From Euonymus europaeus (lineage: Eukaryota; Streptophyta; Magnoliopsida; Celastrales; Celastraceae), in contig OY756964.1 in assembly GCA_963580455.1 (NCBI GenBank), positions 23,348,001 through 23,412,000 on the forward strand: 64,000 nucleotides of DNA, read 5' to 3'. Under the pieces are notes generated by a model, which saw nothing but the letters and a program-made list of their open reading frames with translations, was not told the DNA's origin and did not search any database. The position numbers and the translations under genes were made by a program. Each line of letters opens with the position of its first letter. Position 1 is the stretch's first letter. Shown here piece by piece: positions 5,631-64,000 of the stretch.

Positions 5631-6083
5631 GCGCAAGGACAATGAATCAACTGTACTAAATTATTTTCAGTACCCCATTATTTACTGTTGCTTTTCTTGT
5701 CTGGGAGAAACATAGTTCGAAAATGTACATGGCCATCATTTCTGGCGCATGATGAAGAACAAGAGATGGACAATATTGGTTTCAAGGGGTCCATGGGCCT
5801 GTTGGGATGATGGCCCCACAGCCCAACACATACTTTAGCTACACTAAAATGTTAGGGTAAGAAAGTCCGGTTTCTTCATCATCAATATTAACCAGTTATA
5901 ACTTATTTAATTTTTAATACTAAAATCGGATTGGGTATCGTACTGGACTACTGGTAAGAAGGTTTTGTAAAGTACCTTCCAACGCCCTCACTGACTCTCA
6001 CAAGTAAAAGTTAAGGCCCTAATATGTTCTTTTATGTGCAAGTAGCAACCGCCCCCTAACCTCCCCCCCTTCTCCCTTCTCTC
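5631..6083 (+). promoter_or_regulatory. proximal promoter region of MIR396 (inferred)
   Basis: This is the non-repetitive DNA between the hAT MITE and the TATA box. It ends in a pyrimidine-rich tract (about 6050-6082) of CCCCCCTTCTCCCTTCTCTC type, common in plant core promoters. No individual factor site is claimed. Confidence 0.4.
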
Positions 6084-6089
6084 TATAAA
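6084..6089 (+). promoter_or_regulatory. TATA box of the MIR396 transcription unit
   Basis: TATAAA within CTCTATAAAG follows a C/T-rich tract. Transcription would be expected to start near 6115-6120, about 50 bp before the retrotransposon insertion point. Once the element is removed, this TATA box lies about 220 bp upstream of the miR396 hairpin, a normal spacing for a plant MIR gene. The assignment is inferred from position only. Confidence 0.5.
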
Positions 6090-6161
6090 GTTGGTATACA
6101 CAGAAGATTATATATGCTAGAGTGGTCCACGATAAGCTTTGTTTGGACCTGCCCTATCTCC

Positions 6162-6166
6162 CTCTC
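6162..6166. repeat. target-site duplication, left copy
   Basis: CTCTC directly precedes the TG of the 5' LTR and is repeated exactly at 11060-11064 after the 3' LTR. Five-bp duplications are typical of Ty1/copia integrases. Confidence 0.85.
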
Positions 6167-6382
6167 TGTTAAGAAATACATGTGAAACGACACAGTAGTG
6201 ATTAGGCGGGCAATGTTGGAGCCTTTTATTTGTGAATAGTAAACCCTTAGATTATTTTATTCTTTATTGTAAAGATACTTATAGTGACCTGTGGTTGTAA
6301 GTAAGGTTAATGAGAAAATTGCTTCTTTTGCATCTTCTCTGTTTCTCTTTCAAATCCATCACTGATTCTCCTAAGATTGTCA
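6167..6382 (+). repeat. 5' LTR of the copia element
   Basis: 216 bp, begins TGTTAAGAAATACATG and ends ATTGTCA. It matches the 3' LTR at every position but one (6376). Confidence 0.95.
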
Positions 6383-6396
6383 TGGTATCGGAGGCC
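6383..6396 (+). other. primer-binding site (initiator tRNA-Met type)
   Basis: TGGTATCGGAGGCC begins exactly at the end of the 5' LTR. It is one or two changes away from the usual copia site complementary to the 3' end of initiator methionine tRNA. Confidence 0.8.
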
Positions 6397-6459
6397 AGGT
6401 TCTTGCCTAAGTCTCCTTAATCCTATCGATTTTTCTCCTTCATTTTGTCTTCTCTCATC

Positions 6460-9400
6460 ATGTCTGAGCAGATCGCTGCTGCTGGAGTTTCCGCTGTTGG
6501 TGCTCCTCAAACCATCACTGGTTCCATTTCACCCAATCCGTTGGATGATCCTCTCAACTTGACCACTGCAGATTATGCAGTGAACAAGCTCATTTCTCTT
6601 GTCCTCACGGGCGAAGATAATTTTCATGTATGGAGTCGCACCATACTCAAGGCTCTTGAAGCTCGCAACAAGCAGAGTTTGATTGATGGTGCATTGGCTG
6701 AAGTTGATTCAACAGATGCTCGTTATCCTTCTTGGGTACGTTGTAATAGTCTTGTTGCTACCTGGCTAATGAATTGTGTCTCCGTAGAAATTGTTGGCAG
6801 TCTTTCAAGTTCCTCCTCTGCTCGTGAGTTATGGGTTGATTTGAAGTCTAGGTATGCTGCTTCAAATGATACTCGAATCTATGAGTTAAGAAAAGCCATG
6901 GGGGACACTCGTCAAGGGACTTTGAGTGTGACTGAGTACTACACCAAACAGAAGGTATTCTGGGATGAATTACTCTATTATCATACTATTCCGCTGTGCA
7001 GTTGTGGTGCTAGGTCTGCGCTTGAACAATATCAGAGGAAGGAGTATATCATGTTATTTTTAATGGGCTTAAATGAATGTTTTTCTGTCACCCGGAGTCA
7101 AATACTTGGAATGGATCCTTTGCCTGGAATGAACAAAGTTTTCTCCATGATTTTACATGTTGAACGACAACAAGGTTTGTCTCAATCTAGCCTTATGCAG
7201 CTTCATTCGAATTCTTCAGCAATGGCAGTTAAGACGGGTAGCTTCGCTGAAAGTGGGAAAGGGGGTTCATTCCAGGCTCACAGGAAACATGAAAGTCTCA
7301 CCTGCAACTATTGTCATAAACAAGGGCATACTATTGATAAATGTTTTAAGCTTCATGGTTATCCTTCGGGTCAACCAAAGAAACAAAATCGTTATGGCAA
7401 TTCTTCTAGGAATGTGCAAACTGGTGGTCATATTAATCATGTTTCTACAGAGATACCCACTGATTCATCTCAACTCTCTCCTTCAAGTTTACAGATGAGT
7501 CCAGAATTGGCAAGCCAGCTAATGGAATTTCTCAAGCTAAATACATCAACTGTCTCACTAAGTGGTCAGTCTTCATCTGCAGGTAGTAGTGTTCTTCACT
7601 CCTTACCATCTGTGTCAGCCGTTGCAGGTAATGCCATTTACACCCCTTCTGTCAATTATTCTTCTATCTCATGGTTGATTGACAGTGGAGCGAGTGATCA
7701 CATTGTGTGCTCACTTGCTCTCTTACAATCACCATTACCGTTAACCAATTCTTTCGTTACACTTCCTAATGGAGCACGTCATGTTGTAACCCATATAGGT
7801 TCAGTGTTTTTGCCTAATCAAATATGTCTTCGTCAAGTTCTTTGTGTACCCACATTTAAACTTAATTTGATCTCTGTGAGTAAATTAACTTCTTCAAACT
7901 ACTCACTTCTGTTTTCTGCTTCTTCATGCATTTTGCAGGACTTAGCCACCTTGAGGAGGATTGGAATGGGGAGCATGTCTAGAGGGCTTTATTGCTTGAG
8001 GACACCTTCTTCCACTGTCAATTCTGTTTTGGCGTCTTCTACTATTGGAAATAATTCCATGCTCTGGCACCATAGATTAGGACACCCATCCCCATCTGCC
8101 AGTGCTCTTTTGCCTAAATCTCAATGTGAAATTTTTGAATTTTGTTCTGTATGTCCCCTAGCCAAACTGAAATGCAAGCCTTTCCATCTCAGTGTAACTC
8201 AAACATTGTCTACTTTTGAGCTTGTACATGTAGACATATGGGGTCCTTACTCAATTTCTTCAATTGATGGTTATAAATATTTCTTAACCATTGTTGATGA
8301 TTTTAGTCGAGCTACATGGGTATATTTGCTTCACACCAAACAAGAAACCAGATTTTATATTCAAAAATTTTGTAACTACGTTGAAACACATTTCCAAACC
8401 AAGATCAAAACTCTTCGATCCGATAATGGCCTTGAGTTCCATATGACTGATTTTTTTGCCACCAAAGGGATTATTCATCATACCACTTGTGTTTATACAC
8501 CCCAACAAAATGGGGTGGTTGAACGCAAACACCAACACATTCTCAATACTGCCCGAGCTCTTAGACTTCATGCAAACTTACCTGAAAATTTCTGGTCCTT
8601 TTGTGTTCTTACCGCTGTCCACCTTATCAACCGCCTTCCTTCGCGCCAACTAGACAAACAAAGTCCTTTTGAAATATTATTTCACAAGCCTCCTCAATAT
8701 GATGATCTGCGTGTTCTTGGATGTCTTTGTTATGTTTTAGTTCCTTCCCATGCTCGTACAAAATTCCAAGCCCGAGCACGTGTTTGTCTCTTCCTTGGCT
8801 ATCCTTTTGGCACCAAAGGTTATCGTGTTTTTGATCTTGAGTCTCACAATATTTTCATTTCTCGTGATGTCACTTTTCATGAGACAAAGTTTCCTTTCCA
8901 CCAACCTACTCTAGCTCCCTCATCTGATGCAACTCTTCCTATTTTAGATCATAATTTACTTCTGCCCACTTCTACGCCAAGCAACCATACCTCCGCACCG
9001 CCTCCTGAAATACCTCCTTCTCCAGAATCTTCTCTCTCTTCTGCCCCTGACATGTCACCTGATACCTTGACCTCCACGCTTCCTTCAGCTCCCATTTCTT
9101 CTCGTATTTCTCTTCGACCCAAGCGCCCTCCTTCATATCTTCAAAACTACCAATGTAATAATGCTACTGTATTCATGGCCTCATCTGATTCTTCTCAAGT
9201 GACAAAGTCTCTACCTCCACATCCTATTGGTAAGCACCTTCATTATCATAATTTTTCACCATCCCATACTTCTTTTTTATGCGCTATCTCTGCTGATCAT
9301 GAACCTGCCACATTTAGTGAGGCCGTACAGTCTTCTGCTTGGCGTCAAGCCATGGATAATGAATTGCAGGCTTTGCAGAATAATCACACTTGGGAGTTAA

Positions 9401-10875
9401 CTCCCTTACCCCCTGGCCGGAGAACTATTGGTTCCAAATGGGTATATAAAACCAAGTTTAATGCCGATGGCACAGTGGAACGTCACAAAGCTCGCCTTGT
9501 GGCTCAGGGTTTTACTCAAAAGGCTGGTTTTGACTACACTGAAACTTTCTCACCGGTTGTGAAAATGGTAACTGTGCGTGTTTTTCTTGCATTGGCCTCT
9601 ATGTGCAACTGGCATTTGCATCAAATGGACGTTCATAATGCTTTTTTGAATGGTGACCTCCATGAGGAAGTATACATGGCTCAACCTCCTGGTTATCAAA
9701 GTTCCGAGTCACATCTTGTGTGTAAATTGAAGAAGTCAATTTACGGTCTTAAGCAAGCGTCCCGTCAATGGAATGAAAAGTTCTGTTCAGCCTTATTAGC
9801 TTATGGTTTTCAACAGTCCAAGTGCGATTATTCTTTGTTCACTTTGCAGAAAGGTGCTGATTTTGTGGCTTTGCTTCTTTATGTCGATGACATGGTTATT
9901 GGTGGAACAAGTGAGAGTTTAATTCAGTCGGTGAAGAGCTACTTGCAGTCTTGTTTCAAACTCAAGGACCTCGGCCAGATGAAGTACTTCCTGGGTCTTG
10001 AGATAAGTAGAACAAAAACTGGTTTGATGATTAGTCAACGCAAGTATACCTTGGATCTTCTACATGATGCAGGTTTTCTTGAGGCTAAACCACTATCTTC
10101 TCCTACTGAATTGAATGTCCACCTTTCAATACACGATGGCAGTTTGCTCAAGGATCCATCTATTTATCGTCGGCTTATTGGAAGACTCACATATCTCACT
10201 TTAACGAGGCCTGACATCAGTTATTCAGTTCATAATTTAAGTCAATTTCTCCATGCACCAACTGATCGTCACTTGCAAGGAGCACATCGGGTTCTGAGAT
10301 ACTTGAAGAGTTCTCCAGGGCAAGGGATTTTTTATCCAGCTAGACCTTCATATGATATTCGTGCTTTTTGCGACTCGGACTGGGCTGCATGTCCGGACAC
10401 CCGTAGGTCTGTCAGTGGTTTCTGTGTTTTGTTGGGCAATTCTCTTGTGTCATGGAAATCTAAAAAACAACACACAGTCTCTAGATCATCAGCGGAGGCG
10501 GAGTATCGTGCAATGGCTAACACATGCAGTGAATTAGTTTGGCTATCAGCTCTCTTACGTGATTTACACATTCCTCACATACAACCAATTACTCTGTATT
10601 GTGATTCGCAGGCTGCCATACACATAGCAAACAATCCCGTATTCCATGAGCGAACCAAGCACATCGAATGTGATTGCCACTTCACTCGAGAAAGAGTACA
10701 AGGAGGTTTCTTAAAGCTTCTTCACATTGCTTCCAAGGAACAGCCAAGTGATTTTCTTACCAAACCAGTTTCAGTTCATCAGCTTCATCATCTTTTGCGC
10801 AAGCTGAACGTTATGGATGCATATCGTTCACCTTGTAAGGGGGTGTTAAGAAATACATGTGAAACGACACAGTAG
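6460..10875 (+). CDS. gag-pol polyprotein of the copia retrotransposon, intact
   Basis: One uninterrupted frame of 1,471 residues from the first in-frame ATG at 6460; the open frame extends 15 bases further upstream but without an ATG. Gag covers about residues 1-280, then a CCHC zinc knuckle (CNYCHKQGHTIDKC, about 282-295). The protease motif is WLIDSGASDH near 405. GAG-pre-integrase (WHHRLGHPS) is near 535. The integrase core shows its acidic triad in HVDIWGP, RSDNG and QQNGVVERKH. Reverse transcriptase has YVDD near 1141, and RNase H carries DSDWAACPDTRRS and SSAEAEYRA. No stop or frameshift is present. The frame ends with a TAG inside the 3' LTR, so the last ten or so residues are LTR-encoded. 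It could supply every activity needed for its own transposition. Confidence 0.97.
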   Translation: MSEQIAAAGVSAVGAPQTITGSISPNPLDDPLNLTTADYAVNKLISLVLTGEDNFHVWSRTILKALEARNKQSLIDGALAEVDSTDARYPSWVRCNSLVATWLMNCVSVEIVGSLSSSSSARELWVDLKSRYAASNDTRIYELRKAMGDTRQGTLSVTEYYTKQKVFWDELLYYHTIPLCSCGARSALEQYQRKEYIMLFLMGLNECFSVTRSQILGMDPLPGMNKVFSMILHVERQQGLSQSSLMQLHSNSSAMAVKTGSFAESGKGGSFQAHRKHESLTCNYCHKQGHTIDKCFKLHGYPSGQPKKQNRYGNSSRNVQTGGHINHVSTEIPTDSSQLSPSSLQMSPELASQLMEFLKLNTSTVSLSGQSSSAGSSVLHSLPSVSAVAGNAIYTPSVNYSSISWLIDSGASDHIVCSLALLQSPLPLTNSFVTLPNGARHVVTHIGSVFLPNQICLRQVLCVPTFKLNLISVSKLTSSNYSLLFSASSCILQDLATLRRIGMGSMSRGLYCLRTPSSTVNSVLASSTIGNNSMLWHHRLGHPSPSASALLPKSQCEIFEFCSVCPLAKLKCKPFHLSVTQTLSTFELVHVDIWGPYSISSIDGYKYFLTIVDDFSRATWVYLLHTKQETRFYIQKFCNYVETHFQTKIKTLRSDNGLEFHMTDFFATKGIIHHTTCVYTPQQNGVVERKHQHILNTARALRLHANLPENFWSFCVLTAVHLINRLPSRQLDKQSPFEILFHKPPQYDDLRVLGCLCYVLVPSHARTKFQARARVCLFLGYPFGTKGYRVFDLESHNIFISRDVTFHETKFPFHQPTLAPSSDATLPILDHNLLLPTSTPSNHTSAPPPEIPPSPESSLSSAPDMSPDTLTSTLPSAPISSRISLRPKRPPSYLQNYQCNNATVFMASSDSSQVTKSLPPHPIGKHLHYHNFSPSHTSFLCAISADHEPATFSEAVQSSAWRQAMDNELQALQNNHTWELTPLPPGRRTIGSKWVYKTKFNADGTVERHKARLVAQGFTQKAGFDYTETFSPVVKMVTVRVFLALASMCNWHLHQMDVHNAFLNGDLHEEVYMAQPPGYQSSESHLVCKLKKSIYGLKQASRQWNEKFCSALLAYGFQQSKCDYSLFTLQKGADFVALLLYVDDMVIGGTSESLIQSVKSYLQSCFKLKDLGQMKYFLGLEISRTKTGLMISQRKYTLDLLHDAGFLEAKPLSSPTELNVHLSIHDGSLLKDPSIYRRLIGRLTYLTLTRPDISYSVHNLSQFLHAPTDRHLQGAHRVLRYLKSSPGQGIFYPARPSYDIRAFCDSDWAACPDTRRSVSGFCVLLGNSLVSWKSKKQHTVSRSSAEAEYRAMANTCSELVWLSALLRDLHIPHIQPITLYCDSQAAIHIANNPVFHERTKHIECDCHFTRERVQGGFLKLLHIASKEQPSDFLTKPVSVHQLHHLLRKLNVMDAYRSPCKGVLRNTCETTQ
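10834..10843 (+). other. polypurine tract of the copia element
   Basis: TGTAAGGGGG lies immediately before the 3' LTR, the usual place for plus-strand priming. It also forms part of the pol frame. Confidence 0.75.
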
Positions 10876-11059
10876 TGATTAGGCGGGCAATGTTGGAGCC
10901 TTTTATTTGTGAATAGTAAACCCTTAGATTATTTTATTCTTTATTGTAAAGATACTTATAGTGACCTGTGGTTGTAAGTAAGGTTAATGAGAAAATTGCT
11001 TCTTTTGCATCTTCTCTGTTTCTCTTTCAAATCCATCACTGATTCTCCTAAGTTTGTCA
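10844..11059 (+). repeat. 3' LTR of the copia element
   Basis: 216 bp, begins TGTTAAG and ends TTTGTCA; it differs from the 5' LTR only at 11053. It contains the pol stop codon (10873-10875). It lies about 140 bp upstream of the miR396 hairpin, so any promoter activity in it would read into the miRNA. Confidence 0.95.
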
Positions 11060-11064
11060 CTCTC
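11060..11064. repeat. target-site duplication, right copy
   Basis: CTCTC, identical to 6162-6166. Host pyrimidine-rich leader text (CTCCATCTCCTTCTC) continues from here. Confidence 0.85.
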
Positions 11065-11197
11065 CTCCATCTCCTTCTCTATCTTGAACATTATCACTGC
11101 AAGAAGAAGATGTGTGTGTGTGTCTGTGTTTGTGAGCGAGAGATCTGAAGAGGTGCGTTGCTGTGGAGAAGTGAAATTCTATGGAGAGGAAGGAATT

Positions 11198-11303
11198 AAG
11201 CCCTGGTCATGCTTTTCCACAGCTTTCTTGAACTTTCCGTGGCCATTGATTTGCCATGGCAAGCTCAAGAAAGCTGTGGGAGAAGATGGCAAGTTCAGGG
11301 CTT
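11198..11303 (+). ncRNA. MIR396: microRNA precursor miR396 (396b-type mature sequence)
   Basis: The 5' arm (mature, 11215-11235) begins TTCCACAGCTTTCTTGAAC and ends CTT, the conserved plant miR396 sequence with the 396b-type 3' end. The 3' arm (star, 11263-11283) begins GCTCAAGAAAGCTGTGGG. The arms share a 15-base perfect core (CCACAGCTTTCTTGA) plus flanking pairs. The lower stem closes with AAGCCCTG (11198-11205) against CAGGGCTT (11296-11303). The loop is about 27 bases. In plants miR396 guides cleavage of mRNAs for GROWTH-REGULATING FACTOR proteins and so limits cell proliferation in leaves and other organs. Its apparent TATA box is at 6084, now separated from the hairpin by a copia insertion. 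Confidence 0.96.
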
Positions 11304-12393
11304 TATTTGTATGGATTTTGCGGTCGAGATCTATTGAATTACAGGCAATGCGATATGATCAACGGCTGGATCTTCTTCAATTCTTCCTTAATAGTTGGTA
11401 ATTCTTCACAGATTCTGTTCGAATTTTCTTCTTATTATGATTATCACTCTGAATTTATGAGAATTGTGTTATATTTAATTTTATACGATTTAATTTGTTC
11501 GAATTGTCTAAATGTTCTATGTTGATTATATTTACTGCAACACGTTATTTGACCCATGCATGGAAGTACACCAAGAATGTTACATTATTTAATATTTTAT
11601 TTTCCCTTTCTCCTAGATTTCTGTGAAAGATGTTTACCATTTGTCACCTTCTGACTTCATTTTTAACCACTCTCCCTCAATCCCTCAATCTTACAACATC
11701 AATTTTTTATTTTATTTTTTTACAAAAATTTGAAAAATTAATAGATATAAAATATAAGTGATTTCAAACCTTAGATTTGAAATTCATAGTAAAAATTACA
11801 AAAAATAAAAAATCACAATTTTAAAAATCATATTTTTATGATTTATTTTTAAAAAAAATTAAAAAATTAAAAAATATTGGGGCACCGATCCTACCCCAAT
11901 CCAATTAATTAGGAGGAGTAGATGGAAGTTGTTAAGGGAATCTTTACCTAATAAAAGAAGGGAACAAGTGAAAGCAAAAGAGCTTTAAATGTTTAGCCAA
12001 GAGAATGCAACAGTACTGGCTAATTGTAGGTCCATGAAAGAAAATTTGGTCTATGATAGGGAAGACAAAGGGGCATGGCAACTCTGTCCACTATGGTATT
12101 AATAATGGAAATTATTGCTAATATAAGTTCATCTAGTCTCCTCAGATTATGGACCAAAACTGGCTACCTTTCTCGGATGCCAATTAAGTCTAGCTAGATA
12201 GATATCTAAAGAAAGTGAAAATCTCAATAATGTTAAGTTGCAACTATGTTTCAAAACTATGTCTAGCTATGTACGTTTATATATATATATATGACCAATT
12301 TGGAGATTATTAAGTTGCAATTATATTTCAAAATTATGTCTAGCCATGCATGATCAATTCGGAGATTGTGGTGGCGCCGCAACATATCATTCC

Positions 12394-16436: not shown

Positions 16437-18594
16437 GTATGAACCTTAACCTTTTGTTTTGACCTAATTTTCTGTCTTCATTTTTCGTGCGTCTTTCTGT
16501 CTCAAATTTGAAACTTGTGTTGGGATTTTGTTAAATATTTTGTTGTCTTTAAGCTAAAGTGTGGTTGTTCGGACTTCGGTTGAGGAATTCCGTTGATGTG
16601 TTGGATCGATTGGTGTTTGGACTCTGTCAATTATATATATAAGAGAAGAATGTTTCTTGGTGTTTCATACTTTCATGATTTCATCCATGGATGTTGTCGA
16701 TCTGGGCTTATTTTAGGTATTTCATCCTCCATGAATCGGCGAAGCCCAAGCGCGATTCGACCTAGATCTGGTTTCCTCGATGACCCGTTTTAGTTTTAGC
16801 CCATTGTTTTTTTTTTGTGGAAAAGTGTTCTTGTTGAATGTTGACCATGATCAAGGTGGGGCCCATTATTTGGTTACATAAATCATAAAGCAGTTTACTG
16901 TGAGGTCCAAGATGGCCTTCGTCTGACTCTGGTCCAGCATAGTCCTTAGCCGTGTTTGAGTGTGATGAGTTGGGCTCCTGGGCCCAGTATTCTTCGTGTC
17001 ATAGTAATATAGTATCCTCTGAACATGTCTCACTGAGCCCATCTCCCGGAGATCTTTGTTTCTTGTAGAGAAGTTTGGAGACCCAGGCCTTTATACTTTC
17101 TAGTCAGTAACCAAATGTTGTGGATTACCGTTCTTGGGCTTTTTTGGTTTTTGGTTAGTTAGTTGCATGGAGGAGGGCCATCTGTTTCTTTTCTTTTTTT
17201 TGGGTTTTTGTTAATTGTCAAGACCATGTAGTTTGTTTTGATGTTGCCTGATGTTTTCTTTAAGTGCTCAACTCGAATCACAGTAACTGAGTAAACTAAC
17301 GAAGCCATTGAAGATTGAAAGGCTTGAAACCAGATAAATCTCTCTGTCAATAATGTAAGTTCCAAATGGAGCCAAAGATGCTGAATTGGATTTTTGAAAA
17401 AATTAATTATTGGTTTGCTTGGGTATATGTTTGCAAGTTTGTATGTACGGGACAGTCCCGGATTGCTCTTAGGTGGTCTAATCATGAGACTCTAATGTAT
17501 GTCATTGATAACGGATGAACTCTATATTGAAGTATTGAACTTCACTAAAACTGCTTCAGAATTTTGCAAGATAGATGCATATGATGATACTTCCCAAGTG
17601 GGATGTACCTGCATGATTGTTTTGTTAGTTTTATCATGTCTCTGTTTTTATATCACATGGCTATCTGTTAGTATGTGATTTCTCCAAATCATGGCCAAGA
17701 GTCTGAGGAGATGGTCCAGGGCCATGAATGGTTGAGGGAATCCTTCAGAGTACAGCTGCTTATTACTTGCTGCTACCTGAATGATATAAATTTGGTATCT
17801 ACTGGCACTTAACACGCATGCATTGGTTAGGTCACTTGCGTACTCTTGATCCTTGATAAAAAGGTAAACAACTCCTGTGCGCAGGGCTCCCACAGTGAGC
17901 GGGGTTGGGGACGTGCAGAATATACACAAAACTTATCCCCACATAATATGTTGATTCGGGGTCCACTTCTCTGGTCCTTGGTCTTTAGTTTTATTCAGCC
18001 TTCTATGATTTTAGTGTTTGGGTTCTTTTTGTTGTATGTCATTGATATTTGCGCACACCAGTTGTATTTTCTTGACAATCCTGTACTTTTCTCTCAATCC
18101 TTTGTATGTTCCGGCATTGATCATTTGCTGTAATTATCATATGCTTTTATAGTTTATTTGTGAGAATTAATATCTTTTAATATATCGAAGCTGAAATTTG
18201 AATTAAATGATTGGAATGTTTTAATTTCTTCATGTTTTGATAGCATGGGTGGATACTGAGATGTAATCCCTTTCCTAGGTTGAAGGATCATAATCCAGCT
18301 ACCTGCGCATTTTTTTCTGTTATTCCAATGGTATGAGGTTTGGAAGTGGTAAAATTATTCTTTGGTTCACACTTTACCATTTAATGTGGGCTCCTACATA
18401 TGGTGCCACAGTTCTTAAACATATGCTATTAGACTATAGCTCCCTCCATTTAAAACCTAAATTGATCACCTTCATTTCTTCTGCATTTATTTACCAAATT
18501 AGTTTTCTTATTTTGTAATTATTTTCTATTTGAACTTGCATTGCACAATATGTAATTTATGCTTGTCTAATCTCACACGTGAAATGTTGTTCAG
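16437..18594 (+). other. 5' UTR intron of the DAYSLEEPER-like gene (inferred)
   Basis: The donor ATCTAG|GTATGA follows a leader rich in CTCTC; the acceptor TTGTTCAG lies just before the coding exon. No coding exon or mobile element was recognised inside. Long leader introns in plants often hold enhancing elements, but none is visible as such. Confidence 0.5.
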
Positions 18595-18643
18595 GGGGTT
18601 TCTTTTTTGCTACCTGAAGCACGCATTGACAACCTGTGGAAAC

Positions 18644-20650
18644 ATGGCCACTCCTGAGGAAAACTATGAACTGGCTCTTGCGGAAATAACTCCGGAAGCA
18701 CAGCCTAGCAAGGGAAGGAAAAAGAAGTCAATAGTCTGGGAACATTTCACCATAGAAACTGTAAGTGCTGGATGTAGAAGGGCGTGCTGTAAGCAGTGCA
18801 AGCAAAGTTTTGCTTATAGCACAGGCTCAAAGGTAGCAGGTACCAGCCACCTCAAACGTCATATTGCCAAGGGAACCTGCCCTGCACTTCTACGTAATAA
18901 GGATAACAATCAATCAACACCATTTACCCCACATTCTACGATGGCTGGAAATGGCAGTACCTCTGATCGACCAAAAAGACGCTATAGATCTTCTAGCTCG
19001 CCTTACCTTTCTTTTGATTCAGACCGTTGCCGCCATGAAATTGCTAGGATGATTATTATGCATGACTACCCCCTTCACATGGTTGAACATCCAGGATTTG
19101 TAACTTTTGTCCAGAATCTTCAGCCCCGGTTTGGGATGGTGAGCTTCAATACTGTTCAAGGTGATTGTGTTGCCACTTATCTAAGGGAAAAACAAAGCCT
19201 TATGAAGTTCTTCAAGGGGATAGCTGGACGCATTTGCCTTACATTGGACATGTGGATGTCAACTCAGAGCTTAGGCTATGTGTTTGTGAGTGGATACTTC
19301 ATTGATAATGATTGGAAAGTCCAAAGGCGGGTTCTCAATGTTGTGATGGAACCATATCCTGATTCTGATGCTGCTCTCAGCCATGCCGTTGCTTGTTGTC
19401 TCTCAGACTGGAGTTTGGAGAACAAGTTGTTTTCGGTAACTTTTAATCACCCACTGAGTGATTCTGGGATTGAAAATCTTCGGGCGCTACTCTGTGCCAA
19501 GAATCCACTCATTTTTAGTGGTCAGTTATTGATTCCGCATTGCATTGCTCGCACTTTGAGCAGCATAGCAAAAGATTTGATAGGGGAAGGACATGAACTT
19601 GTCAAGAAAATCCGTGACAGTATAAAGTATGTGAAGACATCTGAATCACACGAAGAGAAGTTTCTTGAGCTCAAGCAGCAGCTTCAAGTCCCCAGTGAAA
19701 GTAGCCTGTCTCTCGATGATCAAAAGCAATGGCATACAACATATCATATGCTGGTGGCCGCTTCTGAGCTAAAGGAAGTATTTTCTTGCTTGGATACTTC
19801 CGATCCTGATTATCGAGAACCCCCATCAATGGAAGACTGGAAGCAGGTTGAAACTATATGCACATACTTGAAGCTCCTTTATGATGCAGCGAGCATACTT
19901 ACTGCTACTTCTAATCCAAGTGCAATTACATTCTTTCACGAAGTGTGGAAGATTCAGACGGAGTTGGCTCGTGCTGTTACTAGTGAGGAACCCTTTGTCA
20001 GCAGCATTGCAAAAGTAATGCAGGAAAAAGTTCATAAGTATTTGAAAGATTGCAGCCTGATTTTGGCAGTTGCTGTAGTCATGGATCCTCGGTTTAAGAT
20101 GAGACTTGTTGAGTTCAGTTTCAGCAAGATATTTGGTGAAGAAGCTCCCATGTATATCAAGAGTGCTGATGATGGAATCCATGAGCTTTTTCTAGAATAT
20201 GTGGCACATCCTCTACCTCTTACTCCTGCCTATGCAGATGAAGGAGATGCTGAAAACAGTGAGAAGGGCGAGGGGAGTCTGTTGTCAGACCATGGATTAA
20301 AGGATTTTGATGTTTACATCATGGAAACTACTAGCCAACAGATGAAATCGGAGCTGGACCAGTATTTGGAGGAGTCTTTGTTGCCTCGTGTCCAAGAGTT
20401 TGATGTGTTAGGTTGGTGGAAACTTAATAGGCTCAAGTACCCAACTCTTTCAAAGATGGCTCGTGACATCTTAACGGTTCCAGTGTCAACTGCTGCCCCT
20501 GATTCTGTATTCGATACCATGGATAAAGAACTGGACCAGTACTGGAGTTCGTTGCGACCAGAGACAGTGGAAGCCCTTGTATGTGCAAAGGATTGGCTAC
20601 AGCATGGATCACCAGAAGTCTCGAACGCACTTGTGAAAATTGAATATTAA
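18644..20650 (+). CDS. DAYSLEEPER-like domesticated hAT transposase, zinc finger BED protein
   Basis: A single coding exon of 668 residues. I start it at 18644 (MATPEENYEL) because the in-frame codons before it lie in a leader that seems spliced. The BED zinc finger covers about residues 32-73: VWEHFTIE, then C49/C52 and H69/H73 in KVAGTSHLKRH. A hAT-derived central region follows (PLHMVEHPGF, FNTVQGDCVATYL, CLTLDMWMS), and a C-terminal dimerisation region at about 567-655 with LPRVQEFDVLGWW and YPTLSKMARDIL. The match to Arabidopsis DAYSLEEPER, as I remember it, is close along the whole length. That protein is a nuclear DNA-binding factor needed for normal development and no longer acts as a transposase. 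The first exon appears to end at 16436 (ATCTAG|GTATGA) and the next to begin at 18595, a 2.16-kb leader intron. A 3' UTR intron is likely at 20652-20910. Confidence 0.92.
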   Translation: MATPEENYELALAEITPEAQPSKGRKKKSIVWEHFTIETVSAGCRRACCKQCKQSFAYSTGSKVAGTSHLKRHIAKGTCPALLRNKDNNQSTPFTPHSTMAGNGSTSDRPKRRYRSSSSPYLSFDSDRCRHEIARMIIMHDYPLHMVEHPGFVTFVQNLQPRFGMVSFNTVQGDCVATYLREKQSLMKFFKGIAGRICLTLDMWMSTQSLGYVFVSGYFIDNDWKVQRRVLNVVMEPYPDSDAALSHAVACCLSDWSLENKLFSVTFNHPLSDSGIENLRALLCAKNPLIFSGQLLIPHCIARTLSSIAKDLIGEGHELVKKIRDSIKYVKTSESHEEKFLELKQQLQVPSESSLSLDDQKQWHTTYHMLVAASELKEVFSCLDTSDPDYREPPSMEDWKQVETICTYLKLLYDAASILTATSNPSAITFFHEVWKIQTELARAVTSEEPFVSSIAKVMQEKVHKYLKDCSLILAVAVVMDPRFKMRLVEFSFSKIFGEEAPMYIKSADDGIHELFLEYVAHPLPLTPAYADEGDAENSEKGEGSLLSDHGLKDFDVYIMETTSQQMKSELDQYLEESLLPRVQEFDVLGWWKLNRLKYPTLSKMARDILTVPVSTAAPDSVFDTMDKELDQYWSSLRPETVEALVCAKDWLQHGSPEVSNALVKIEY

Positions 20651-22700: not shown

Positions 22701-22762
22701 TCTATATCAGCTCCACTTTACATATAGTGGAGTCTCCAGACTCCAGAGCATTCTTGCAAAGC

Positions 22763-23752
22763 ATGCCTCGATTTCCGTCTTTCCGGCTTTACTCTAAAAA
22801 CATATTCCTCATCTACCCTCAATGTTCAATCCCCATTTTCATTCTTTTAGAATTTCTGAAAGAATTTTTTCCAGATAAACCTCCATACTATATCAGAGTT
22901 TTATCAGAAACCCACGAAGATGGTAGCCTCCACCGTCGATGTCTACTGCAATTCGAATACAAATTCGAGACACAGAATCAAAGTTTCTTCGATATCTCCC
23001 ATGGAGGTCGATCGTTCCATCCGAACGCCCAGGGAGCTAGAAACGCTGCTGCAGTGAAAGAGTTCATCTCCAAACACGGCGAGTTCGTCGATTCCGGCAC
23101 TTTCAGAGGAGGTAAGACTACGACTAGATCTAAAAACGAAATATATTCCAAGATCTTATCAACAGCCAGAAACAAAGATCAATTTCTGTCCATGGTTCAA
23201 GAACGAGATCCGAAATCCTTCTTCCGCTATAAAAACAATCTGAAATATGCGGCGGAGGCATTATTCCCTTATGTTTCTGAATTTACATATTTTCCAAAAT
23301 GCCCTAAACCTTTATTAGAATGGGCTTATTCTAGTTTGGGTATTGGGCCTTATTCTGGTCCATTAGAGATGCGGCCCAAGTCTTTGATTATAGAAGGAGG
23401 GCCCAAGACTGGCAAGACTCAGTGGGCGAGATCATTGGGTCCACACAATTACTATGCTGGACCTGGACCCATGGATTTTCGAAATCATAGAGATGATGTC
23501 ATGTATAACGTCATGGACGAGGTCGATCCTAAGTTTTTTAAATATTTTAGATCTTTCATCGGAAGCAAAACGGATTTGACTGTAGATGTGAGGTACGGTA
23601 AACCTCGGACAATTAAAGGCGGAATTCCTTGCATTGTGCTTTGCACTAGTGCTGCGTCTTACTTTACTTATTTTTCTAAGGACCCAGCCTCTCTAGAATA
23701 TGTTCGATGTAATGCTTATTTTGTATTTATTCATGATAGTGAGTTGTTTTGA
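22763..23752 (+). CDS. endogenous geminivirus-like replication-associated protein (Rep), intact frame, altered catalytic sites
   Basis: An uninterrupted frame of 329 residues from the ATG at 22763; the open frame upstream of it has no ATG. The layout matches plant-virus Rep: rolling-circle motif I (FLIYPQC, 15-21), motif II region (LHRRC, 56-60), motif III region (VKEFISKHGE, 98-107), then the SF3 helicase with Walker A (GGPKTGKT, 212-219), Walker B (VMDEVDP, 250-256) and motif C (IVLCT, 291-295). Three key residues are changed. The second histidine of the HUH pair is arginine (R59), the nicking tyrosine is phenylalanine (F101), and the motif C asparagine is threonine (T295). Walker A is kept. 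Family Rep proteins are about 350 residues and nick DNA to start viral replication; this copy should not nick. It is a genomic relic or an adopted gene, not a live virus. No coat protein or other viral gene was found next to it. Confidence 0.93.
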   Translation: MPRFPSFRLYSKNIFLIYPQCSIPIFILLEFLKEFFPDKPPYYIRVLSETHEDGSLHRRCLLQFEYKFETQNQSFFDISHGGRSFHPNAQGARNAAAVKEFISKHGEFVDSGTFRGGKTTTRSKNEIYSKILSTARNKDQFLSMVQERDPKSFFRYKNNLKYAAEALFPYVSEFTYFPKCPKPLLEWAYSSLGIGPYSGPLEMRPKSLIIEGGPKTGKTQWARSLGPHNYYAGPGPMDFRNHRDDVMYNVMDEVDPKFFKYFRSFIGSKTDLTVDVRYGKPRTIKGGIPCIVLCTSAASYFTYFSKDPASLEYVRCNAYFVFIHDSELF

Positions 23753-25235
23753 TTTGTCTTCACTTTTCAGTTTGTGGTTGCGTATCACTGCTGTTGTAAT
23801 GATGGTAAGAGAGTATTCTGATAAAAGTATTGCGAATATTTGAGTCCTGATTAATGGATATTTTTCAGCATAGCCATTCTTCACCTTCCAAATCGACGAT
23901 ACGAATGACATAGAACAGTAGTGACCGAGGCTTTTTCTGCAGGACAGCCTTTATAACCAGGTTAAACCACAGTAACACACTATCCTTGTTAGGGATAAAT
24001 ATTGTAAGACATGCAATAATATTGTACTTGTAGTATTTATTAATAAGAGTTTTTATTCTTTTTCAATGAAAAGTCAGTTTTCTAATAATATAATGTCGTG
24101 TGCTTGTTTTTGTATATTATATAGTAAATGATCTGGTGTGTAGAGTTCGGCTTTTATACAAGAGATTAAATCATTAGTTTTTATAAGTATTAGTTCACAG
24201 TCTAAGATGACATTCAGAAAGTCATCGGTATGATTGTAGTACATCATTAAATATGTTTATCTTGTTTATGAGAACATTATAATTTCGACTACATCTGTTA
24301 GTACATTTGTGTGTAATGAACTGAATCAATTCAAATAAAATGTTTTTATATTGACTATATAAGACAAATACCTTATAACTATTGTGAGTGCTTATACTCT
24401 AAATCATGATACAAATAATATGAACGATCATGAATCGAATATTGTTTTGAGTCACATAAGATTGAGATTCGTTTATGAGTCAATAAACTCAGTGAGTTAG
24501 ATAATAGTAGTACATTATTAATTTAGAATATTGTTTGTTGAAAGAATCCATGTCTGGATTTAGAGATTGAGGATACCTCTAAAAAAAGTTTATATGTTTT
24601 GATCGTGTCAAACATTATATGTGAATTTAATTATTTGGCACGATAAATAAACTTCTTAACATGGTGAGTTAATAAACATTTAATATATAGCTCGTAATAT
24701 ATTTTAAGATGGACACAATTTTTTGGTGGAGTGAATTGTAATTTAACAAAAGAAGAAAATTGATTATATAAATCAATTTTTTTTGGAATATTATGTCAAA
24801 TTATATTTGTTAAGAGGTCATTGTAGTGCCTCTATGTAAAGAACTCAAAGTGGTCTAGGGTTATGCACTTTTTTTAGCCCAATAGAACAAAAATCAAAAC
24901 CTTAGAAGCTTTATTTCTTCCACTAGAGATAGAGTTCGGAGAAGGAGGTGACATGGCAAAAGACTCTAGTGTTTCAAGCTTCTATTCCGGCGATCTATTC
25001 ATTTTTTGTTCGTTGTGTCCTTCATGATTGGAGAAGAAAAAGTTGTTCGTCGTTACTTGATCGGCGTGCATATTTTATTAAGATCAAATCAGACAAATCT
25101 TATTAGGTATGAAACCTGTGACGAAAGTAAGTAAAACGGATCAAATTTTTTAATCTAGTTTGCTTGGGTGCTCTATCAACTAGAGCATCCTTTCAAATTA
25201 ATATGTTGCATACCCTTCAATCTCTAAAGGCACTA
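23753..25235. other. gene-free AT-rich DNA downstream of the Rep-like frame
   Basis: No reading frame, viral gene or confident repeat was seen. The style of the text near 24900-25130 resembles long noncoding ends of LTR elements, but I found no matching second copy. Confidence 0.35.
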
Positions 25236-29381: not shown

Positions 29382-29597
29382 TTCAATAAGATAGAATAAA
29401 AAATTTAGATGGTATGCAGCCATCCCAAAATAAGAACCTACAAAAGGAAGTCAAAGTTTGGACGATGATCAAGAAACAACAATTAAACAAAGATAGAGAA
29501 GAATTAAAACACACTTGCTCAGATTAAAGTTTGTAAACGCACTATTCTTGACTCGATAGTGACATCACCTGCAATAAAGATCACAAAGCATTAGTTA
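29382..29597. repeat. direct repeat copy A inside the Helitron candidate
   Basis: About 216 bp, repeated at 29905-30121 with scattered differences. Both copies start TTCAATAAGA and end CAAAGCATTAGTTA. On the minus strand each contains a roughly 52-55 base exon-like unit between TTGCAG and GTGTGTTTT. Confidence 0.8.
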
Positions 29598-29904
29598 AGA
29601 AATACATAAAAAATTAGAAGAGTTGGTGAAGTGGCAAAATTGACATATGAGAAATTGCCATGAAAAGAACCACATGTATTTAGAAGGATCTCAGAGCTAT
29701 CAAGGAAAAAAATATTCAGCCAGAAAACTAAAGGATAGCTGTCAACAGAAACCAAAGAGATGCAAATAAAACACAAAACCAATAAGAGATGTCGTAAACT
29801 TTAACAAAAAATAAACCTATAATCAAATCTATCCCCCTCAATTCAAATAAACCTATAATCTAGCCATCTTGGAGCCTATAAACTGGACCAAAATTCCCCC
29901 TCAA

Positions 29905-30121
29905 TTCAATAAGACAGAACAAAAAATTTAGATGGTATGTAGCCATCCCAAAAATGACAACCGAGAAAAAGAAGTTAAAGTTTGGACGATGATCAAGAAA
30001 CCACAATTAAACAAAGATGAAGAAGAATTAAAACACACCTGTCCAGATTAAAGTTTATAAACGCACTATTCTTGCCTCGATAGTGACATCAGCTGCAATA
30101 AGGATCACAAAGCATTAGTTA
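29905..30121. repeat. direct repeat copy B inside the Helitron candidate
   Basis: The second copy of the passage at 29382-29597, offset by about 523 bp. A further short shared stretch (CTAGCCATCTTGG) occurs at 28686 and 29860, so a longer segment may have been duplicated and then partly lost. Confidence 0.8.
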
Positions 30122-30230: not shown

Positions 30231-32594
30231 GCACCACTTGCGAGAATACAAAAAGAAAGTTGTGCTGGCCATGATAGAGCCGGAATTAAATCCTCCAAGT
30301 TTAAAGGTTTAGATAGGTAGATAGATTGTGTAAGTATACCATAATTCATGCAAAATTCTAATGTTGTTGTTATTATGCTTAATTTACCAATGGCTTTTAT
30401 CTCCATCTCTTTTATCAACATACTAAACATAACAATGTCAACATGAATGAGAAGAAGAAAGAAAAAAACTTGGTCAACCATTTAATTAGATATTAGATAT
30501 ATATAATAATTCTCAGAAGCAAGATCAGAGTGATAATGGACATAATGAGCAACGAAGATGGTAATAACAGAACGATGGCTTTGACAACAGTGGTATGAAC
30601 GGCAAACAAACAAATGAGCAAACAGTGAAAAAGGTATAATCCAGAAACAATATCTCCTACTAAGGAAACTCGACTCAATTGAGCAAGAACAAAATACAAA
30701 AGCTGGTACCTTGGCCGTCACAGAGAGTTACCTAAAAATGACGTAAGATATAAACATAAAAAAAGGACTGACCTCGCAATGCTTTTATAGGCAAGCGTAG
30801 CGCCCAAAACGTCTAAAAAACACATAATTGTCAACCAAGAAATCAAAGATTGGTTGGAAAACATAAGACCAAAATAAAAATTAGAACTGTAAATGGACTG
30901 AAATAGAGGAAAAAAAAACACAGTAGTCAAAAATATAAAATCAATGTAAAAAATCGGTTGCAAATGGACATAAATAGGAAAAAAAACACACATAACCCTT
31001 AAATGTAGAAATAATGTAAAATTTTGACTACAAAATGGAGATAAATAAGAACATAAACACACTTAACCCCCAAGTTCAAGGCCAAGACAGGACAACCCAA
31101 CCTTCAGTAGAGTGACCCCCTTGAAATACCAGAAATGGAAGCCCAAAAATCCAAAATTACCAGTTAAAAACCCAACCTTCACCAGATAGAGCGCCTTCAA
31201 AAACCAGAAATCCAAGTCACAAAACCAAAAATTAGCATTTAAAAGGCGCAGCAAGGAAAACCCCACCTTTTGCAGATGATATTGCAACCCAGGTGGAGTT
31301 CAAATTGTAACCACCAGTAAAATCAGCAGTGAACATTTCCAATCACTGGTAGAGTTATCGTCGGTGAAGCTGAAGAGCAATATAACACGGAGGAGCACTC
31401 AATCCACCAGCAAAATCAGCCGCAAAAAACCCCAACCACTGCCAAGAAAGCTAATCTGATTAACAAAATGAAACCAAATTTAACAGAACAACACAGGAGT
31501 AAAGCTTACATGAGTCGATTCATGCAATCAACAAAAGAAAGCGAGGGTGATATCTCACTCTCTGTTATTGCGATCTGGCAAAATTGCAGAGCCAGCACCC
31601 TCGATCATCCTCATAAAATTTCTTTGTTCTTTCTTTGTGTTCGACAAAACTGAAATAAGAAAAGGCTACCCAAAAAGAAAAACTCAAGAAATTCGAGACA
31701 AAAAGAATCTAATTTCATAGCGCAAACTCGCATAGAGGTAGAACAGAGGCAATCCTTCAAAGAAATTGGAACATCAGAGATAAAAGAGAGCTGAACGAAA
31801 GCTAACCTGTCGATTTGGTGTACTGAGTGCAGCTAAAAGCCCCAATCACCCATAGATCAAAGCAAAATCAAGAGGCGATTTCATCGCAAATTGGGTCGGT
31901 GAGAACAGTACCTGAGAATGGCGTATATGTGAGGGAAAAGCAAGGTGGTACCTCCAAAAGCAGGTGCATGCACCGCAAAGGAAGCCAAAAAGCATATGAA
32001 GGCCGGTACTCTCGGCTGGAAGCAATGGGAGAGCACTCGCGAGCAAATGCAGCCACGGAGGGTAAAAAATCGAAAGGTAGAAAGAACGACGCCGTTTTGC
32101 TCACCGTAGTGTAGTCTAGAATGTACGTGCAAAGCGGAGAAAAACAAAAGAAAAGACGCGCGGATATGAAAAAGCACGGGACTCGCCGTAGTAGTGCTCC
32201 AAAAAACACCACTATATAGAAAAGGTATAGATTATTCTCCTTTTGAAAAAGGGGTTTAAGCTAACGAAAATGAAAAATCATATTTGCCCCACATCCATGT
32301 TAACTACCTTGGACTCGTAACCCAGCAACCCGAACTCAGATTTTCTCTCTCATCCGTATCTCTCCCCCCAAATTCGACTTCGATATCTGCAAGTCAGACA
32401 CATCTGAAGCAGAAACCTATCCTCTGCTCTCTCCAAAATCCTAGGGCTTTACCTTCGATTTCGGTTGAAGTTCAAATTGCCCGGTTCATTTCTATCGAGA
32501 TTTCAGTGAAAAAGGTAGCTAGGTTTTTTTTACAGTATCTGAATTCGGATATACAAGTAAGGGTTCGAGACGAGTGGTTTTCGTCGATCTGATC

Positions 32595-35500
32595 ATGGAT
32601 TCGCGAGATTCATCTTCTCAATTGCCGCCAGAGAATCGAGACGGCCCCTCCTTTGGCGCGGGTAACGATGATATCTTCTTTTCCGCTACTGCTGCTATGG
32701 CCAAGGAAGCGTACCTCCATTTTCTGGCTCGTCGGTATGTGGAGTGCCTTGAGGTCTTGAATCAGCTATTCCAGAAGAAGCCCGACGATCCCAAGGTAGT
32801 TGAGAACATACATTCCTCGTCCGTGTGCTGATGTTCATACGCATATGCTTATCAGCTTATGTATGGAGGAATTTGCTTCAGTAAACGGTGATATTGAAGT
32901 AATGGTTTGTGTGGCTTGCTATGGCGGATTTTTTCTTCCCGGAGTTATTGAGGAGAAATACTGTTCCTATTTTTTTTTTTTGCTTTGTTGCCATATTTTC
33001 TGAATTCGAGGTGTGGCCACTTGACTTTGTGTAGTGGATGATTATGTTTGTGCAGGAAAAATCAACTTGCAAATAATTTTTCTGGGTGCATGAATTGAAT
33101 TGAAGAAAAAAAATCTTTAGTAATTCATCTGTAGTGTAATTGCAAGGGTGAAAATTGAAAAAAGGAAGGCTATTGGGTAGAATTAACTGGGATGTTGTGC
33201 CATTGTGGTTTGATTGATTCATAAGCTTTATTTTTATGTTGATATTTGTTTCAAGATTAGGGATTTTGTTGTATGGCCTAATATTTAAAGCATTGTTATC
33301 GAAGGCCCTCTGAGTGCTTGTGTGGTGAGGAGAGACCTGGCAGCCTTTTAGCCTTCAAACGAGACTCCGTGCTTCAAGCGTTCATTTGGTGAACTTCTAC
33401 TTTTAAGATTACATTTTGGGGCATAACCGAATAAATTGGATCACCTAACAAACATTATCTGATTAAAATCTTAAAAGGATCTTTTTTGCCCTAATTTATC
33501 ATAATTAAATTTCTTATGCAGAGTACGTGATGTTGATTATTATGAAATGATAATTAGACTTTATGTGTTTTGCGATGGAACATTATTAGCAATTGTGTTT
33601 GCCTTTATCTGATACAGATTTAATAGTGTCATTTATGATAGCTACATTCTGATTGTTAGATTATCACTTCTAGCTTATAGCGATGTTATTATTTTCATTA
33701 AAATTCTTTTACTAATTATTATTACCCTTTCTGAAAAAATTTATTGGCACTTCTTGAGTTTATCGCTCTTTCCTCTTTTCTAACCTTTGGTGCACCTCCT
33801 TTGAGCCTTTAGATTAACTTTTTTTTCTTTTAAAGGAAATATGTCACTGATGTTGTATTTGTGCTTCTGCTCAACCATGATGGTAGTCCACTAGTCCAGC
33901 TCCAAATTATATATTTGAGCATTTGTGCTGCATCATTATATATTTTTAGATATGTTCAAGCTTTCTTTTAAGGATTTTCTCTGTGAATTATCAAACAATC
34001 AAATAACATTATAATATATATTTCCCCATTCAAAAAAAAAAAGGTCCACTAATAATTTTTTACATATATTTTATTACTTCAAGTTTATATTTGTTGGCAG
34101 TAAAACTGTAAAAGAGTGGTTTTATTCACAATACTGAAATTTTCTGCCACTAAAGTCCTCGTAATCTGTAGGGTATTTGAAGAGCTCCAGCTGTTACATT
34201 GATTGTTTTATTGAATGATTTGCACTTTATTGAGAAGCATGAGTCTTGATCTTTTAGACGTTTGTACTTTAGCTGTTGCTTGTTTGAGGATAAATTTTGT
34301 TTTGGATGGTAAATTTTTTTTTTTTTTTTTTGGGGGTGGGGGGTGTTTGGTTTCGTTTAGCTCTTTACATTCATGTTGAGTGGGTCATAAGTTAGACCAT
34401 TTGTTTTACATTTGGCTGTGTTGGGAATTTACATTTGACTGTTGTCTGTTGGTTTTGGGAATTTTACATTAACAAATCAATTCTATTTGGATAGTGGTCA
34501 AGTTCAGTGGGTCACTACTCCAGTATCCGCTAATGGCTTTGGGAATTTGCATTTGGCTTGTCAGTTTTTAGGAGCTTTGATTACCTTTTTATGGGCGGTG
34601 TGAATTAGGTTTTTGTATTGCATATCATGATCCCAAACCTGCTGCTAAATCTTATCGCATGTTGATGTTCTTATGCACAATTATTTAAATGGTCATAGAC
34701 TCAGTATTTGTGTTTCAATTTAACTTAAATGGCATTCAAATTATGCTATATTCTATGTCTTATGTTATGTTCTTGTTGATTTCTGAATCAACATAGATGC
34801 TGTAGGCTCTTCTTGACATAGGAGTTGTTGAGTTCTCATTTTTAAGCTGCTGTAAATAAATTTTCTGATATTCGTCTTTTAATCTGTTTGATATTCTTCC
34901 AAGTCATATTCATTTTTTTGTTGGTGAACGTTCCAGGTTATTCATAACATTGCAATTGCAGAATGCTGTAGAGATAGTTGTTCTGATCCAAGAAAGTTGC
35001 TTGAAGCACTCGATGATGTTAAGGTATAAGAAAACCCTCCCCACGTCTGTTTTGATTTATGCATCACCATCATTCATCAACACAATGAATATAATTGAAG
35101 AAAGTGTGTTTTTTCTTTTGGTAAGAAAGTATGATTGCTTAGATGAGCTTGATTGTTGCAGAATTATTTTATTAGACTGGAAATTCTTGAAGGGCTTTCT
35201 AGTTGGGTCCTTTTTGTTGTGAGTTCTTTTACTAGAATTTGTTAGTAGCTTTATTAATTCTCAGATTATCTGAAATATGAACGACAAGCAGTAATTTTTT
35301 TTTAGGCAAAACCAGCGTTTCTGCCACTATTTTGTTAAGAAAAATTGTACGGACCAGGTCACTCTTCTTTTGGGTATACTCCTGTGTTTCTACACATGAA
35401 CTTGCAAGTATACTCATACACCCACATTATATATCTTGGGTTCTGTGAAATGTTTCATGTTTGTGGAAAATTCTTCTCATCTCCTTTTGTTGGTGTTTGA

Positions 35501-38500: not shown

Positions 38501-38882
38501 GCAACTGCGAGTTGAGAGAAGAGTAGATTGTGAAGAGTTGAATGGAGGATCTGGGTCTGACAAGAGTGCCTCTCAAGAGGTAACACAAGGTTCTCTCTTC
38601 CTCAAGCCAGACGAAGCGCGTGGAGCCCTTTCTGCAAATTTTGCTGCCTTGTCTGCAATGCAAGGTGAATTTGATCGAGCCCGCCATTTTGTGATGGAAG
38701 CACTGTCCTTGATACCGAACAATCTGCAAGCAACTTTGACTGCAGTTTACCTGGATCTTATGCTTGGTAAGTCACAAGAAGCTCTTGCCAAGTTAAAAGA
38801 ATGTAGCCATGTCAGGTTTCTTCCCAGCAGTTTACAACTGACTAAATCCTCGAGTCTCGATGGTCATTCTGGTCACATCTGA
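32595..38882 (+). CDS. CNOT10: CCR4-NOT transcription complex subunit 10 (CNOT10)
   Basis: Six exons join in phase: 32595-32795, 34937-35023, 35506-35667, 35787-35873, 35956-36027 and 36915-38882, giving 858 residues, the expected length for the plant protein. It starts MDSRDSSSQLPPENRD, then EAYLHFLARRYVECLEVLNQ (first helical repeat), AVVWFHLHEYAKALAVLEPL, SMALFLKAQLEYARGNHRKA, FHNNLGCIYYQLGK and LWLRLAECCL, which are TPR-type helix pairs. A long serine-rich insert lies between about residues 210 and 310. CNOT10 forms, with CNOT11, an accessory module of the CCR4-NOT complex, which shortens mRNA poly(A) tails in the cytoplasm. The last exon is unusually large (1,968 bp). The first intron is 2.1 kb. 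The start codon lies 375 bp from the end of a Helitron candidate. Confidence 0.95.
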
Positions 38883-43802: not shown

Positions 43803-44160
43803 GAGGTGTCTTTGTGTTGAGCGCGGCTTGCTGACTTGACGTTGCATTAACTGGTCAATGGGCATTTTTTTGTCATTACAACAACTCAACAAAATTTCCA
43901 ACCATGGATGAGTTTCATCAGACAGCGAGTAAGTATTTTTTTGTGTTGAGCGCGGCTTGCTGACTTGACGTTGCATTAACTGGTCAATGGGCATTTTTTT
44001 GTCATTACAACAACTCAACAAAATTTCCAACCATGGATGAGTTTCATCAGACAGCGAGTAAGTATTTTTTTTATAATCGAGAATGACACCATCAAATTTG
44101 CTTATGCTCAAGCTACACAGCTCATCGACAGATAAATCATACCGAGGCTCAATGCAAAAC
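43803..44160 (-). pseudogene. unidentified exon-like segment with an in-frame duplicated module
   Basis: On the minus strand, after an acceptor-like CCGTTAG, the frame is open with protein-like content: CIEPRYDLSVDELCSLSISK, then FDGVILDYKK, then the module NTYSLSDETHPWLEILLSCC ... MPIDQLMQRQVSKPRSTQ twice, ending at a donor-like CTCA|GTAAGT. A second exon-like piece follows near 43600-43700 (QPSKRVHEPEQLRSPE), and one lies upstream near 44180-44270 (VLIDNVVLELGGLSG). I do not recognise the protein. No start codon or full gene could be built, so a decayed gene or a poorly resolved real one are both possible. Confidence 0.4.
43812..44069. repeat. perfect 129-bp tandem duplication
   Basis: Units 43812-43940 and 43941-44069 are identical base for base. 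The period is exactly 43 codons, and the minus-strand frame stays open through both copies. Confidence 0.95.
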
Positions 44161-63184: not shown

Positions 63185-64000
63185 CTGATTATAACAACAA
63201 ACAAAAATAAATAAATCATTCTGAAATAAATAAATAAATAGACAAATTACAATTACACACAATTGATGCTCAGCCCAACTGGCTAACCATTATATATTTC
63301 TGTTCATTGTGTGGAGTTTGAATTCCGAATTTTATGTGTCATGAAAAAGAACAATTTCCACAGTTTTAAGAAAAAATTAATAATGCAAATTGAGTTGTGC
63401 ATCGATTTCTGATTGAAGAAGTAAAAATAGAAACTTTTTCAAAAAAAGCTTTCCTTGTTTACAACACAAGGAATGAAGTGAGAATATATTCAAAAAGCAA
63501 ACTAGTTTTAGTATTATTTTTTTGATGATTCCCTGATTGATGATTAAGAAAAGGTAATAATAAATTTCACATTTAAAGTGGAATATTACTAAATGAAAGG
63601 AAAGTATCAATTAATCCCATAATAATCACGATATTAAAAAAAATTGTATTTTTTTTTTCAACAATATATCTATATACAGAATTTCTCACTTGCTCGCGTC
63701 CGAAAACATTATTATTTGCGGAGGCTAAATTAATTAATCACTCAGCTTAAGAGAATGAAATATAAATTAACGTTGTTAGCCTAAATTAGTACCAAAACAG
63801 CACCCATTATGATTTTAGGTAGCTAAACCACATATATATATCCTGTGAAATGAAAAACATTGAAATATGGGATGTCACCCTTTGATTTGATTGTGTATGG
63901 TAATTAGAGGATTAACTGCAGTCATTAAGGCATTAATTCAAAATTGAACTAAATATACGTATTAATTAAATATTGATTATGGCACCAGAGAAGGGAAGAA
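63185..64000. other. intron of the GT47 gene
   Basis: It begins beyond the acceptor ATAATCAG of the first visible exon. It is AT-rich, with an ATAAATAAATAA tract near 63210 and no further exon recognised. Confidence 0.5.

Follow-up and report, generated by a model that had tools for sequence, protein, structure and literature searches.

The question raised by this locus is what becomes of a conserved microRNA gene when a retrotransposon has entered between its likely promoter and its hairpin. The window, which here denotes the whole stretch of DNA analyzed, comprises 64,000 nt of Euonymus europaeus (assembly GCA_963580455.1, contig OY756964.1, positions 23,348,001 to 23,412,000 of the forward strand). 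It carries a MIR396 gene, and miR396 restrains the GROWTH-REGULATING FACTOR (GRF) growth regulators. A recent copia insertion, in the same orientation as the conserved MIR396 gene, was found to separate a TATA box from the hairpin, and from the sequence we infer that the insertion site was inside the 5' leader of the primary transcript (pri-miR396). The best overall explanation, with a probability of roughly 0.5, is that the native promoter would be uncoupled from the hairpin.

The MIR396 hairpin occupies positions 11198-11303 of the plus strand, as identified by its fold and an Rfam match. A mature miR396 word of the miR396b type (5p strand, 11215-11235, plus) is paired within this stable hairpin with a star word (3p strand, 11263-11283, plus); both were located by word matching, with the star word taken from the window, and neither was derived from a database. 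Folding of positions 11178-11325 gave -67.7 kcal/mol with a z-score of -7.2, and none of 200 shuffled sequences was equally stable. The default Rfam scan of the window returned no matches, as the hairpin scored under the curated cut-off of 80, while a relaxed scan of 11050-11450 matched family RF00648 (MIR396) over model positions 1-118 of 118 with 72.2 bits and an E-value of 5.6e-16. The short loop relative to the Rfam model probably explains the score below the cut-off. The antisense strand of the hairpin (11204-11291, minus) also matched the Rfam MIR396 family, although more weakly (56.9 bits, E = 9.7e-12). The hairpin has an 8-bp basal stem and a 5-nt 3' bulge besides the miRNA duplex, and it thereby resembles pre-miR396c of Oryza, for which a 9-bp stem and a 5-base bulge are described as conserved among eleven structures (PMC9905475). 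A search of viral contigs for the miR396 word gave no matches, and the precursor letters of the hairpin had no occurrence in the open-access literature searched.

The inserted element spans positions 6167-11059 on the plus strand, adds 4.9 kb to the locus, and is a Ty1/copia element that is complete in outline. It is bordered by the 5-bp target-site duplication CTCTC on the left (6162-6166, plus) and on the right (11060-11064, plus), and its two long terminal repeats (LTRs) are each 216 bp long with TG...CA ends (5' LTR at 6167-6382 and 3' LTR at 10844-11059, both plus). A sequence resembling a primer-binding site, TGGTATCGGAGGCCAGG, follows the 5' LTR at 6383-6399 (plus), and we take it to be of the initiator-tRNA-Met type; the polypurine tract AAGGGGG precedes the 3' LTR at 10837-10843 (plus). 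A single open gag-pol frame on the plus strand runs from the first ATG at 6460 to 10875, ending within the 3' LTR. The complete frame is 1476 amino acids long when counted from the TTG at 6445, where the list of open reading frames begins it, with no internal stops.

The frame was submitted to Pfam in five pieces, such that some domains were split at piece boundaries, and copia gag, integrase, or reverse transcriptase domains were matched on the plus strand in four of the five. These included Retrotran_gag_3 (6589-6696, E = 1e-8), Pol_BBD (7672-7902, with the protease-type motif DSGA found by motif search at 7681), the GAG-pre-integrase domain gag_pre-integrs (7984-8166, E = 6.6e-10), a partial integrase core (rve, 8269-8502, E = 1.8e-8, split by a piece boundary), the retroviral SH3-like domain SH3_retrovirus (8680-8898, E = 2.8e-30), and the RVT_2 reverse transcriptase (9382-9999, E = 3.3e-67, likewise split, with YVDD at 9880). 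Additionally, a CCHC zinc knuckle was recognized by regular expression at 7303-7344 (plus). The last piece (10000-10872) matched no Pfam family, and the RNase H-like motifs within it (YxA.....SE and TKHI, 10504-10665, plus) were found by regular expression only. The integrase lies upstream of the reverse transcriptase, and the element is therefore of the copia type. The domain order of gag, protease motif, integrase, and reverse transcriptase, the 216-bp LTRs, and the 5-bp duplication are all like those of short-LTR Ty1/copia elements, with nothing unusual and with Ale and Ivana as candidate lineages, and the element is apparently competent as judged from these features. Besides the two LTRs, no other copies or fragments of it were found elsewhere in the window at an E-value of 1e-3.

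The same features bear on whether the juxtaposition could stem from misassembly or chimeric joining, which is highly improbable: a matching target-site duplication, LTR ends, and a continuous leader are the expected traces of a real integration, and the window contains no runs of N. Both flanks of the element are rich in C and T, and identical 5-mers were shared in six of 594 pairs between them, the duplication itself being counted; a CTCTC duplication beside full LTRs is unlikely to have arisen by chance. The LTRs differ at one of 216 positions (LTR position 210). At rates of 1.3e-8, 7e-9, and 2.5e-9 substitutions per site per year, this corresponds to insertion ages of 0.18, 0.33, and 0.93 million years, with upper bounds (95%) of 1.0, 1.9, and 5.3 million years, respectively. 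The original prediction had described a complete, very young copia element with a CTCTC duplication at 6167-11059. The complete element was borne out by the LTRs, the duplication, the site resembling a primer-binding site, the polypurine tract, and the open frame. The age held in part: "young" is a fair description, while "very young" is uncertain, as it rests on one difference in the 216-bp LTRs and the upper limits reach 5.3 million years.

The presumed core promoter of the MIR396 gene is a pyrimidine patch followed by a TATA box (6060-6089, plus; TATAAA at 6084-6089). When the flanks of the element were joined in silico, this TATA box stood 216 bp before the hairpin, and the junction was continuous and pyrimidine-rich. 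The original prediction of a TATA box at 6084, a canonical miR396 hairpin at 11198, and an element between them in the same orientation agreed with the positions, the plus-strand domains, the fold, and the Rfam match described above, and the expected rejoining of a pyrimidine-rich leader, at a predicted TATA-to-hairpin distance of about 220 bp, was recovered almost exactly. This geometry is ordinary, since the 5' regions of maize pri-miRNAs are reported to average 523 nt, with TATA-like motifs at -23 to -28 in 83% of them (PMC2773440). From the TATA spacing, transcription is predicted to start near 6112-6119. The insertion would then sit in the leader roughly 50 bp after the start, as the original prediction had it, and this is a reasonable expectation. 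The presumed leader would run from 6110 up to the insertion at 6166 (plus), and the flank sequence at 11065-11197 (plus) would be the remainder of it. In the joined flank of approximately 1.1 kb, the distance to the hairpin was 765, 733, and 216 bp for the three TATAAA words and 191 bp for TATATA. The latter word, located at 6109, would shift the start somewhat later, still 5' of the insertion. A published mapped MIR396 start was not found in the open-access literature, which was searched in small part. The words GTGGTCC at 6122 and GGCCCCAC at 5812 match TCP-type promoter motifs; these matches are uncontrolled and were given no weight.

Several observations weigh against the uncoupling of the native promoter. 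The assignment of the TATA box is only weakly above chance: among 2,000 shuffled 300-nt stretches, TATAAA was found in 395, CTATAAA in 91, and TCTATAAA in 33, where the latter two words were picked post hoc after inspection of the sequence, and TATAAA alone is weak evidence for a promoter. The LTR contains no AATAAA, so the case for termination in the LTR is weak; words with one mismatch to it occur in the 3' LTR at 10848 (AAGAAA), 10852 (AATACA), and 10915 (AGTAAA). If transcription begins far upstream, the insertion may have little effect on a transcript that is long and spliced or that reads through the element. A start within 11060-11197 would leave the insertion upstream of it, but no TATA-like word was found there, and neither TATAAA nor AATAAA occurs in this interval even with one mismatch. 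Finally, the known insertions beside microRNA genes argue rather for a higher miRNA level than for the loss favored here. In the maize mutant Corngrass1 (Cg1), the retrotransposon STONER inserted at the tandem miR156b/c gene, 42 bp before its start, and transcription begins within STONER (PMC4585910, PMC8473971). In the rice mutant Bushy dwarf tiller1 (Bdt1), nDart1-3 lies 38 bp upstream of the miR156d start, and the starts were shifted and the miRNA raised (PMC4585910). The miRNA level was raised by both insertions (PMC4585910, PMC8473971).

If the native promoter is uncoupled as proposed, its transcripts must cross the whole element before reaching the hairpin, and termination in the LTRs or silencing of the element would reduce read-through. 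The whole hairpin is located 3' of the insertion and its fold is normal, and any effect should therefore be on transcription: with the hairpin and its lower stem intact, processing of miR396 would be unaffected. The fold of the hairpin was unchanged when a transcript was modelled from position 10985, within the 3' LTR. In support of this reading, the insertions of Cg1 and Bdt1 both changed the transcription start of the adjacent MIRNA gene. Uncoupling of the native promoter would be the main outcome, and transcription of the remaining miR396 from this copy would begin in part within the 3' LTR or at sites after the native start. A lower or altered native output of miR396 has slightly less than an even chance. 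The two routes named in the original prediction, termination and promotion by the LTRs, are both possible, with weak sequence support.

Promotion by the LTR leads to a different account of the locus, in which the 3' LTR has captured the gene and promotes pri-miR396, placing miR396 under LTR control (for example, stress-responsive control). The element and MIR396 share their orientation, and the LTR, with its end 138 bp away from the hairpin, is the nearest sense promoter candidate; the TATA-like word TATAGT at 10957 has a spacing of 241 bp to the hairpin, close to the 216 bp of the native TATA box. The precedent of Cg1, with transcription starting inside STONER, points the same way. The LTR has no TATAAA, however, and offers only the one-mismatch TGTAAA at 10945 and the weaker TATAGT. 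On balance this account is the less likely one, and a significant contribution of the 3' LTR to pri-miR396 transcription is a possibility that we would likewise hold to be rather unlikely. That the 3' LTR would have become the promoter actually driving this MIR396 gene, so that in a natural genome a retrotransposon would control a conserved growth regulator, is the most doubtful of these propositions.

The insertion could also be a neutral passenger with little effect, either by sufficient read-through or by the dominance of other MIR396 copies. The undamaged hairpin and the short time since insertion are compatible with such a passenger, and MIR396 can be a multigene family, with nine canonical genes reported in soybean (PMC6411377). 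Against it, the insertion of a transposable element so close to a MIRNA start had consequences in both Cg1 and Bdt1, although these were found through mutant phenotypes and are hence a biased sample. A neutral passenger is considered unlikely, and the complete lack of a practical change is viewed with similar doubt. The preferred reading remains the uncoupling of the native promoter from the hairpin.

The neighboring genes provided further insights into the identity of the locus. A CNOT10 gene extends approximately over 32595-38882 on the plus strand, where positions 36981-38879 matched PDB 8fy4 (E = 2.1e-45); its first exon at about 32.6 kb (open stretch 32523-32828) was recognized by eye only and had no match in the database searches. 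A NAA35/MAK10 gene extends approximately over 49754-57484 on the minus strand. It was identified by Pfam, where four of the ten stretches submitted matched a family, mainly through two exons with TPR_NAA35 matches (E = 4.8e-20 and 4.5e-9). The Mak10 domain match (E = 0.0012) was under its cut-off, and the exon at 57260-57484 had no PDB match. The Arabidopsis MAK10 gene is presumably AT2G11000, near MIR396a (AT2G10606). Arabidopsis CNOT10 is listed as AT5G35430 (PMC7910438) and MIR396b as AT5G35407 (PMC12845292). CNOT10 would be a neighbor common to both species, with the Arabidopsis proximity judged from the locus numbers, and the close numbering suggests a conserved gene order. This suggests that the window is a conserved, MIR396b-like locus.

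Other features were observed throughout the window. Between MIR396 and CNOT10, a 706-amino-acid open frame at 18530-20650 (plus) contained the RNase-H-like and dimerisation domains of a hAT transposase and is possibly an intact hAT element. An open 341-amino-acid frame at 22727-23749 (plus) matched two domains of geminivirus Rep, the catalytic one with E = 2.1e-27 and the central one with E = 2.6e-13, and it is probably an endogenous geminivirus-like element; such Rep homologues have been reported in forty-two angiosperm species, being particularly common in Ericales (PMC7758297). A short open stretch at 24933-25103 (plus) weakly matched an O-methyltransferase, with an E-value of 7.7e-5 and a score of 22.6 bits, slightly above the cut-off of 22.3, and is perhaps a gene fragment. 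Two 217-bp direct repeats with 91% identity and a spacing of 307 bp were found at 29382-30121, where a TRIM element was rejected by eye, as a target-site duplication and TG...CA ends were not seen. Additionally, a tandem pair of 132-bp copies, 100% identical, lies inside a minus-strand open frame at 43811-44071, and two open stretches at 61893-63219 (minus) matched an exostosin GT47 glycosyltransferase.

The kind of event is already known from Cg1 and Bdt1, and what appears new is MIR396 as its target, on sequence evidence. As in Cg1, a conserved MIRNA gene has a retrotransposon next to its start, but STONER is upstream of the start, whereas the element here is downstream of the presumed TATA box, at MIR396. 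Bdt1 likewise involves a transposable element close to a MIRNA start, and it differs in being a new mutation by a DNA transposon with a proven phenotype. A miR172 allele of apple, which involves another miRNA and another element, is reportedly a natural insertion of a transposable element at a MIRNA gene that is linked to organ size. A thin search of the open-access literature gave no report of a comparable insertion at MIR396; the nearest was an intronic insertion in MYB7 of Camellia, which is said to potentially encode miR396 (PMC12946509). Ectopic expression of miR396 led to smaller leaves in Arabidopsis (PMC3252272), while the effect on miR396 dose or organ size in E. europaeus that the original prediction raised is speculation and may be buffered by further copies of MIR396. 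With an element between the presumed promoter and the hairpin, the locus would offer a clean natural test of LTR takeover versus shut-off of a conserved MIRNA gene.

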